Shown in pieces: positions 7,723-14,664 of a stretch of 14,664 nt of DNA. Under the pieces are notes generated by a model that was given only the letters and a program-made list of their open reading frames with translations, did no database searches and was not told the DNA's origin. The first letter of the stretch is position 1. Every line of letters begins with the position of its first letter. Position numbers and translations under genes: made by a program. Location: contig JBFLYA010000068.1 in assembly GCA_040757115.1 (NCBI GenBank), positions 3,624-18,287 on the forward strand, read 5' to 3'. The stretch is from a bacterium. GTDB taxonomy: Bacteria; UBA9089; CG2-30-40-21; SBAY01.

Positions 7723-7994
7723 GTAACCGTTCACCGCAAGATGCCACAGAGACGCAGAGAAAAAATTAAAAACTATTTACCATAAGCTTCATTCCATCTC
7801 TGATTTTCATCAGAGCAAGCTTTTTGAGGACTGACATCTCATGATTGATTAACAATTTGGTTTTGATGTCCTATGTATTGCAATGATTGCCTCAATAATC
7901 TTTTCTATTATCTGATTTATTTCCATGTCTTCTCCGTTCCTCTGCGTCTCTGCGGTAAATTACCACCTGAACGGTTACTGCGGTGAACGGTTAC
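7723..7994. repeat. 272-bp repeat element with perfect 16-bp terminal inverted repeats (copy 1)
   Basis: GTAACCGTTCACCGCA at 7723-7738 recurs exactly inverted at 7979-7994. Inside both ends lies a second inverted module, CAGAGACGCAGAG (7746-7758 and its complement near 7941-7953). On the right side the GTAACCGTTCA motif is doubled (complement at 7968-7978 and 7984-7994, 16-bp period). No transposase is present, so this looks like a non-autonomous MITE-like element. I could not identify a clear target-site duplication. A second, degenerate copy starts at 14196. The element fills the gap between convergent pilQ and hflX and overlaps the hflX 3' end. Confidence 0.75.
7798..7825 (+). terminator. 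Possible pilQ terminator hairpin inside the repeat
   Basis: CTCTGAT (7798-7804) and ATCAGAG (7809-7815) form a perfect 7-bp stem with a TTTC loop, followed by CAAGCTTTTT. Flanking AAGCTT palindromes at 7784-7789 and 7817-7822 could extend the stem. The T-run is short and displaced by a few bases, so termination is only possible. The same hairpin core is kept in the copy at 14264-14336. Confidence 0.3.
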
Positions 7995-12666: not shown

Positions 12667-14139
12667 ATGAAGAAAAAGATTATTTATGTCATAGGGCTAA
12701 TATTAAGCCTTTTTATTGGTGGTGTAGTGGGGGCAAGGGTAGCTACACATCACGCCATATTCCCACAAAAAACTGTTTTCGTTGCCCAAACTGCGGTAAG
12801 TCAGGGAGGGCTTATTGACTTAGAGAATGCCTTTGTTAAAGTCGCCGAAGAGGTAAAACCAGCCGTGGTGAACATTAGTATCGAAAAAAAGATAAAAGAA
12901 AGAGGAATCTTCCCCGGCTTCAGAAATGAATTTAGTGACCCATTTTTTGATAACTTCTTTAAGGATTTCTTTAAGGAGTTTGAGCCGAGAGAATACACCC
13001 AGCAGAGTTTAGGCTCAGGTGTAATTGTTGATTCAAGAGGGTATATCTTGACCAATAATCATGTGGTTAAAGGGGCAGATGAGATTCAAATCACCCTGCT
13101 TGATGGACGAAAATTTAAAGGCAAGATAGTTGGTTCTGACCCCAAAACAGACCTGGCTTTAATAAAGGTAGAGGTAAAGGATAACCTTCCTTGTGCCCAA
13201 TTGGGTGATTCGGATGAAATAAAAATAGGTAATTGGGCAATTGCCATTGGCAATCCATTTGGATTAGACCATACGATGACCGTTGGTGTAATCAGTGCTA
13301 AAGGCCGCTCAATTGGTGTAGCGGAATATGAAGACCTGATTCAAACCGATGCCTCAATTAATCCGGGTAATAGTGGCGGACCTTTAGTCAATATTCGCGG
13401 GGAAGTAATTGGTATCAATACGGCTATTGTTGCGGGAGGTCAGGGAATTGGCTTTGCTATCCCAATTAATATGGCAAAAAAAATCATCGGTGATTTGATT
13501 GAACATGGTAAGGTAATAAGAGCCTGGTTGGGGGTTTATATTCAAGAAATTACTCCAGAATTAGCGGAAAAATTCAAAAAAGCCCAGCCCAAAAAAGGGG
13601 TTTTAATCGCAACAATTATGCCCAATAGTCCCGCAGAAAAAGCTGGGTTAAAAATGGGTGATATTATTTTAACTGTCGAAGGAAAAGAAATTTCCACGCC
13701 ACAAGAGCTTCAAAAAGAAATATTGAAAAGAAAAACTGGAGATACTGTTAAACTTGAGGTATTAAGGGACGGTAATATTCTTAGTTTTGAGGTCAAATTG
13801 GCACAACTAAAGGAAGAAGATGTTGTTGAAAAAGATGATAATATTTCTTCCTGGCGAGGAATGACGGTTCAAACCCTTACACCAGAGTTATCTCAACATC
13901 TTGGACTGCCTTCAACAGAAAAAGGTGTTTTAATCTCAGAAATAGCACCAGGAAGCGTAGCCCAGAAAATACGATTGCAAGGAAAAGACATAATTAAAGA
14001 AATAAATCATCAGCCAATTGAAAATTTAGCAGATTTTAATAAAATAGTTAAACAAATATCCAGAACAAGTGATGCAATGTTGGTGATTAAACGAGCACAA
14101 CTAACCTTCTTTGTCGTCTTACCAGGAGAAAAAGAGTAA
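12667..14139 (+). CDS. htrA: DegP/HtrA-family periplasmic serine protease with two PDZ domains
   Basis: This is an envelope quality-control protease that degrades or holds misfolded exported proteins. The 490 residues contain an N-terminal signal/anchor helix (5-22), a trypsin-like domain with catalytic His132 (TNNHVV), Asp162 (KTDLALI) and Ser236 (GNSGGP), and two PDZ domains (about 285-378 and 395-485). The N-terminal part has the long Phe-rich loop (FSDPFFDNFFKDFFKEFEP, about 89-107) seen in DegP/MucD proteins before the GSGVIVD strand. All key residues are intact. The ATG is set by AAGGAGAT at 12652-12659. A ccdA-like frame starts 3 nt after the stop, suggesting that htrA once led an operon. 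Confidence 0.95.
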   Translation: MKKKIIYVIGLILSLFIGGVVGARVATHHAIFPQKTVFVAQTAVSQGGLIDLENAFVKVAEEVKPAVVNISIEKKIKERGIFPGFRNEFSDPFFDNFFKDFFKEFEPREYTQQSLGSGVIVDSRGYILTNNHVVKGADEIQITLLDGRKFKGKIVGSDPKTDLALIKVEVKDNLPCAQLGDSDEIKIGNWAIAIGNPFGLDHTMTVGVISAKGRSIGVAEYEDLIQTDASINPGNSGGPLVNIRGEVIGINTAIVAGGQGIGFAIPINMAKKIIGDLIEHGKVIRAWLGVYIQEITPELAEKFKKAQPKKGVLIATIMPNSPAEKAGLKMGDIILTVEGKEISTPQELQKEILKRKTGDTVKLEVLRDGNILSFEVKLAQLKEEDVVEKDDNISSWRGMTVQTLTPELSQHLGLPSTEKGVLISEIAPGSVAQKIRLQGKDIIKEINHQPIENLADFNKIVKQISRTSDAMLVIKRAQLTFFVVLPGEKE

Positions 14140-14142
14140 TTC

Positions 14143-14199
14143 ATGGCTGACATTTCTATATTTCTTGCCTTTGGAACCGGTATGTTATCATTTCTGTAA
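14143..14199 (+). pseudogene. ccdA: 5' fragment of a ccdA-like cytochrome c biogenesis gene, cut by a repeat
   Basis: The frame from the ATG at 14143 encodes MADISIFLAFGTGMLSFL and then stops. This closely resembles the first membrane helix of CcdA/DsbD-type thiol-redox proteins, where FLAF--G-LSFL is normally followed by SPCVLPL. The stop codon (14197-14199) is the TAA inside GTAACCG, the first bases of the repeat element at 14196. The continuation, including the conserved Cys-Pro region, is not found downstream in the window. The call rests on 18 residues, so it is moderate. The gene starts 3 nt after htrA, with AGGAGAAAAAGAG ahead of it. Confidence 0.55.
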
Positions 14200-14350
14200 C
14201 CGTTCACCGCAGAGACACAGAGACGCAGAGAAGAAAATTAAAATTTATGGACGATACGCTTAACATCCCTGATTTTCATCAGTGCAAGCTCTTGAGTACA
14301 ACAACATTAAACTTGCCCTGATGAAAATCAGGGATGGATTAACAAATCTG
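14196..14350 (+). repeat. Second copy of the GTAACCG repeat element (one end only)
   Basis: It opens with the same GTAACCGTTCACCGCA (14196-14211) and then GAGACGCAGAGAA and AAAATTAAAA, as in copy 1. It shares TGATTTTCATCAG-GCAAGCT and GATTAACAA with copy 1 in the same order. In this copy the internal hairpin is complete: CATCCCTGATTTTCATCAG (14264-14282) is perfectly inverted at 14318-14336, and the match extends to 14288/14312 with one mismatch. The opposite terminal repeat is not found before the window end, so the copy is truncated or overrun by other repeats. Confidence 0.7.
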
Positions 14351-14398
14351 GCTTACCTGCTTGCCGAATGTTCAGCAGGAGAATAGCACGCTGATGAC

Positions 14399-14423
14399 GC
14401 GGATGTTGCGGATATTCGCGGAT
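14399..14423 (+). repeat. Short GCGGAT repeats
   Basis: Three GCGGAT units lie at 14399, 14408 and 14418. They are similar to the GCGGATT words just after the first gene (near 2314). This is a small repeat island between the GTAACCG element and the heptad repeat. Confidence 0.5.
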
Positions 14424-14425
14424 AG

Positions 14426-14539
14426 AAAATAGAAGGTGGGAAGTAACGAGATAAGCGTGAGGAGTGATGTTTTCTTTACTTTCTACTCTCTACTCTCTAC
14501 TTCCTATTTTCAGGAGAACGGTCATGAGTCTGCGACTCA
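14426..14539 (-). repeat. Third copy of the heptad repeat with head hairpin, inverted
   Basis: Read on the minus strand it has the same order as the array at 9091-9376: palindrome TGAGTC/GACTCA (14525-14539, loop 3), CATGACCGTTCTCC, TGAAAATAGGA, four AGTAGAR heptads (14474-14501), AAAACATCACTCCTCACGC and a TCCCACCTTCTAT part. It has four heptads against five in the other copies, and its palindrome has a different sequence. Confidence 0.75.
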
Positions 14540-14664
14540 CAAAGTCTTACGGTAAAATGTCAAGTAAAAAATTAAGTTTTTTTAAAAATATTTTTCCTGA
14601 CTTATATCCCTAAAAAGGCACAAAAATAGTATGTTCGGATACAAGTGAATTTTTTAAATATCCA
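14540..14664. other. AT-rich end of the window
   Basis: I see no gene or clear signal. TTGACA occurs on the minus strand (complement of 14559-14564) without a good -10 partner. No remainder of ccdA is recognisable. Confidence 0.4.

Follow-up and report, generated by a model that had tools for sequence, protein, structure and literature searches.

A ccdA stub behind htrA, probably left by an IS66-type MITE that derives from a GxxExxY cassette

In the current study, we characterized the end of a contig at which a gene appears to stop inside a repeat. The window, meaning the whole 14,664-nucleotide stretch that was analysed, corresponds to G000:C68:3624-18287, where G000 is this genome, and it ends where the contig ends (18287). 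Comparisons were made chiefly with a sister genome (G001) and a genome of the same family (G003). An intact htrA/degP-type gene, whose product carries a trypsin-like domain and two PDZ domains according to Pfam, lies near the end of the window (Table 1). Three bases after the end of htrA (14139), an ATG at 14143 opens an 18-codon frame, MADISIFLAFGTGMLSFL (14143-14196), and its stop codon TAA (14197-14199) consists of bases 2-4 of GTAACCGTTCACCGCA (14196-14211), the terminus of a repeat element, just as a first-pass annotation of this DNA had described. Codon 18 is made up of CT and the first G of the element, which starts after TTTCT; since CTN encodes leucine whatever its third base, the peptide is unaltered through codon 18. 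The frame specifies one hydrophobic helix and ends right where relatives carry SPCVLP. The N-terminal transmembrane helix of CcdA, with its AF-G-LSF pattern, is present, the first redox motif (PCxxP, which closes helix 1) is absent because the frame stops just short of it, and the second redox motif (TPCxGP) and the other helices are missing from the contig and from the rest of the genome. Because both redox-cysteine motifs are absent, the stub cannot work, and we regard the frame as the stub of a ccdA pseudogene, created by a MITE. A scan of the window against Rfam gave no match, and a search for promoters and terminators near the junction of ccdA and the element gave chance-level matches only.

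Table 1. Positions of the htrA gene, the ccdA remnant and the repeat elements in the window.
Feature	Position	Strand	Evidence
MITE copy between pilQ and hflX	7723..7994	-	both terminal repeats; duplicated 16-bp tip on the hflX side
htrA/degP-type protease gene, intact	12667..14139	+	Pfam Trypsin_2 2e-36, PDZ_2 4e-25, PDZ_1 2e-8
ccdA 5' remnant, 18 codons and element-supplied stop	14143..14199	+	13/18 match, rank 1, blind match
TCATTTCT, putative left half of the 8-bp target duplication that insertion would give	14188..14195	+	46 sister-element duplications; no GGTTACTCATTTCT in G000
MITE left part, internally deleted GxxExxY cassette	14196..14380	coding strand -	166-bp core at 96-99% in many copies; alignment with full-length cassette
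Terminal inverted repeat GTAACCGTTCA	14196..14206	+	sharp boundary and unrelated flanks in 53 copies; empty sites
Internal 25-bp MITE hairpin	14264..14336 (arms 14264-14288, 14312-14336)	.	96% complementary; DNA fold z -4.8
Second repeat array, CGGATGTTGCGGATATTCGCGGAT then AGTAGAGAGTAGAAAGTA type	14382..14537	+	left edge clear, right edge approximate
End of third, longer multi-copy element	14541..14664	+	continues to the shared end of contig and window

The nearest intact relative of the stub is P0001 of G003 (L100:1489-2154), a DsbD_TM protein (PF02683, 3e-17; solved CcdA structure PDB 5vkv, 2.7e-28) that starts MEHISIFIAFGAGLLSFLSPCVLPLIPAY and is identical to the stub at 13 of the 18 residues. 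The N-termini of 13 relatives served to score 13,226 18-codon starts from about 453 kb of G000; the stub reached 43.3 and the runner-up 20.7, and the matches of the stub fall on conserved CcdA positions. A blind search of G000 with P0001 returned an intact paralogue first and the site of the stub second (E 0.25). On these sequence comparisons, homology between the stub and the 5' end of ccdA can be taken as shown, and the resemblance is not due to chance. A frame directly behind htrA that makes one hydrophobic helix could instead be a chance frame or encode a functional short membrane peptide, with no remnant of ccdA involved; this is scarcely credible, since neither reading accounts for the distance between the stub and the next-ranked start, for matches at conserved CcdA positions or for termination exactly at the terminus of the element. 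Two proposals of the first-pass annotation are thereby upheld: scoring of N-termini and the blind genome search identify the 18-residue frame as the start of ccdA, and both place its truncation by a repeat element just before SPCVLP. While its N-terminal helix resembles that of the CcdA/DsbD_TM family (PF02683; 5vkv), the stub differs in ending before SPCVLP and in lacking TPCIGP, and it is a pseudogene rather than a working member. A literature search that combined CcdA with SPCVLP found nothing.

The element that supplies the stop codon belongs to a large family. The GTAACCGTTCACCGCA 16-mer also bounds the copy between pilQ and hflX on both sides (7723-7738, and as the reverse complement at 7979-7994), confirming that this copy and the ccdA junction have a common terminus. 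At 7976-7994, hflX itself reads into the terminal repeat of the neighbouring element (tail GNRSPQ, then stop), and its C-terminus is element sequence. There are 105 occurrences of GTAACCGTTCACCGCA in G000 and none of a reversed control, and in 53 fetched copies the common sequence begins sharply at the G, with unrelated flanks. Comparison of the left flanks of 40 copies with G001 gave matches that mostly exceeded 90% identity, and it revealed several empty sites; two of them are clean and confirm precise insertion, one for a 255-bp copy flanked by CCTTTTCC and one for a 294-bp copy flanked by CTTTTCTT, each 8-mer being single in the empty site. Across all fetched loci, exact 8-bp direct repeats flank 46 of 225 paired termini, as against 0-3 for lengths 4-7 and 9-12. 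Sister copies have the inverted ends GTAACYRTTCA..TGAAYRGTTAC, and elements with these ends are transposition products. All the hallmarks of a MITE are present, namely terminal inverted repeats, a target duplication of fixed length (in sister copies) and a non-coding interior derived by internal deletion. At least five unrelated interiors have the same tips, and it seems that one transposition machinery moves many repeat types. Interiors of the CACGAAGGGTACGGAG, CGCGGATGGACACGGATG and AAGTAGGAAGTAGG types were seen with GTAACYRTTCA tips and 8-bp duplications (L243, L228, L246, L235, L230, L030 and L200). Among 386 genomes, a stringent end pattern occurs in 121 copies in G000, 118 in G001, 1 in G003 and 0 in the other 383, and the expansion is therefore essentially restricted to the genus. 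At two loci of G001 (L198 and L215), foreign sequence starting TGATATGATAAAGTGTCAAG begins at the same position, after CGCAGAGA, and runs to the contig end; it may be an insertion sequence that targets the element, or else the element's autonomous partner.

Inverted ends that start with GTAA, together with 8-bp duplications, are the signature of IS66. Because the elements described here have both GTAA-starting termini and 8-bp duplications, we propose with moderate confidence that they move by IS66-type transposition. Published IS66 ends begin GTAAGCG and are accompanied by 8-bp repeats (PMC11946415). Like IS66-family MITEs, the elements are about 200-300 bp long, lack a transposase and occur at high copy number; unlike them, they end in GTAACYRTTCA (GTAAGCG on some only), and their interior comes from a GxxExxY gene and not from a transposase gene, with the tips being common to the unrelated interiors. 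G000 holds a near-complete IS66 tnpC (PF03050, E 1.9e-39) with two stops, which lies between GTAACCGTTCAGGTA ends (C277) and is not flanked by a matching target duplication. An intact IS66 transposase bearing these ends was not encountered in G000, and G001 has weak transposase matches only, so that a non-IS66 transposase, from another family that makes 8-bp target duplications, might have moved the elements. We consider this somewhat unlikely, given that GTAA termini and 8-bp duplications occur together as in IS66 (PMC11946415) and that the sole near-complete tnpC sits between the same termini. With an IS66-type enzyme as the preferred mover, mobilization would have occurred in trans.

When their minus strand is read, the copies turn out to be a 472-bp cassette, encoding a 125-residue GxxExxY protein, from which internal stretches have been deleted. 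Alignment with the full-length cassette shows that the copies keep its leader, its first and last codons and both its ends, and full-length GxxExxY copies in G000, which match PF13366 (PDDEXK_3, 2.6e-45), lie between the same termini. The MITE thus derives from a GxxExxY (PD-(D/E)XK-like) cassette. TIGR04256 has 68 matches in G000 and 59 in G001, of which many are fragments, and whereas the full-length copies match PF13366 between the element's termini, the copy at htrA retains just a piece. The full-length cassettes examined have no target duplication. A bolder reading is that of a genus-restricted burst, at about 120 copies per genome, of IS66-type cassettes whose cargo is GxxExxY rather than a transposase and which left many deleted offspring, with GxxExxY perhaps aiding the spread; as a whole it is speculative, and we consider it unlikely. 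If GxxExxY were active in cassette spread, this would help explain why GxxExxY genes sit in CGCAGAGACGCAGAG-type repeats.

The copy at htrA keeps its left terminal repeat and lacks the right ~110 bp, the right terminal repeat and the target duplicate. It is 99.4% identical to the copy on C115 over 166 bp and is therefore young. Compared with other copies, it has a private inversion of the CCTGC..GCAGG loop (14355-14380), as if by a template switch in the small palindrome, and it gives way to a second repeat at ~14382, which is followed by a third at ~14541. The sequence at 14541-14664 recurs in many other G000 contigs, where it follows unrelated flanks and continues to the contig end; G001, G002 and G003 have no listed match to it. 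Short-read assemblies misjoin in sequence such as the 166-bp core, of which many copies are near-identical, and the copy at htrA could really be a complete MITE with repeats from elsewhere joined on to the right of 14361. Such a misjoin is quite improbable, as the private inversion continues into the next repeat, which places the join away from the border of identical sequence; even then, the left junction with ccdA would stay unaffected. Insertion of the MITE at exactly codon 18 of ccdA is what the sister copies lead us to infer, because the right end and the target duplicate of the htrA copy are missing. To gauge insertion damage, flanks were joined and the empty site was checked for a frame of 120 codons or more. 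For the 46 insertions confirmed by duplication, 34 lie outside frames of at least 120 codons, and of the remaining 12 the majority hit one of the last ten codons; it is therefore rare for a surviving insertion to behead a gene at codon 18.

What became of the ccdA body is less plain. The first-pass annotation held that the element had inserted into, or replaced, the start of ccdA; the cut-off by a repeat stands, and interruption and replacement look alike here given the contig end and the absence of the body from the assembly. The assembly of G000, rated 99.9% complete, contains one other DsbD_TM protein, an intact CcdA at G000:C38, and no second ccdA body was found in it by DsbD_TM match or with P0001 from G003 as the query, even at E 10. 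Nor does G000 contain the clean right junction GGTTACTCATTTCT, that is, ..GGTTAC followed by TCATTTCT. The contig ends 465 bp past the stop codon, inside multi-copy sequence, and because it ends in another repeat, a deletion and an assembly gap give the same picture. A variant of our account, differing in the body's fate, is that ccdA was interrupted and not lost, with the body lying beyond the repeats on a short unassembled or unbinned contig, which is how a body between repeats would come out. This is quite possible but not the likelier outcome, since the same completeness and the same three failed searches, for a second DsbD_TM match, for the G003 query and for the right junction, count against it. 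Both redox motifs are present in the CcdA at C38, whose clade differs from that of the G003 protein; therefore, the lineage probably had two CcdAs, and G001 has kept the C38 type only. A 286-bp element with the 8-bp duplication GGGCACAA (L034:2680-2966) lies about 79 bp upstream of the intact C38 ccdA. The intact paralogue probably makes loss of the second ccdA tolerable, and because of it a physiological loss is doubtful, which weakens the earlier suggestion that losing this ccdA would matter physiologically.

The neighbourhood of htrA in relatives gave a different picture from the one expected. The idea that ccdA after htrA is a conserved arrangement was not borne out: in G003 a dnaE-like gene, recognised by sequence, follows htrA, with ccdA on a different contig, and at none of the remaining htrA loci with downstream sequence is ccdA beside htrA. 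Comparison of htrA 3' neighbours in relatives thus returned no ccdA after htrA, the outcome that the first-pass annotation had named as refuting its proposal. A search for HtrA on genome contigs found seven distant loci, mostly deltaproteobacterial, and no close relative. At the DNA level, the region of the window from the end of hflX to htrA has no match in G001 beyond repeats, though that genome is rated 100% complete. An empty htrA-ccdA site was seen in no relative, the G001 assembly being without the region and the G003 neighbour being different. The missing pairing limits the account and does not refute it, because the stub can be identified without it. On present evidence, the pairing of htrA and ccdA is peculiar to G000, and it may be recent.

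Taken together, the ccdA stub very probably results from an IS66-type, GxxExxY-derived MITE that inserted in codon 18 and was later overrun, the body being deleted or displaced. A ccdA gene would have come to sit directly behind htrA, and a non-autonomous, internally deleted relative of the GxxExxY (PDDEXK_3) cassette, moved in trans by IS66-type transposition that duplicates 8 bp of target, would then have inserted after TCATTTCT, within codon 18. Base 1 of the MITE would complete that codon, and the next three bases (TAA) would stop translation before SPCVLP; with translation ending before this first redox motif, no CcdA would be made. At a later stage, two further repeats would have overrun the right part of the MITE, or this part would have been lost, and the body of ccdA would have been deleted or displaced. 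Insertion at this very site, the assignment to IS66, mobilization in trans, the order of these events and the fate of the body are the parts that we infer.

Transposition of MITEs is itself of a known kind, and what makes the case of broader interest is the element family with its GxxExxY cargo. For the scattered GTAACCGTTCACCGCA repeats of this lineage, the analysis defines where they end, shows that they duplicate 8 bp of target and traces them to a GxxExxY cassette with IS66-like tips, and the origin of the 'CGCAGAGACGCAGAG' repeat class therefore becomes testable. The beheading of ccdA illustrates clearly how a mini-transposon can switch a gene off in a redundant background, and the case shows how such repeats prune genomes.
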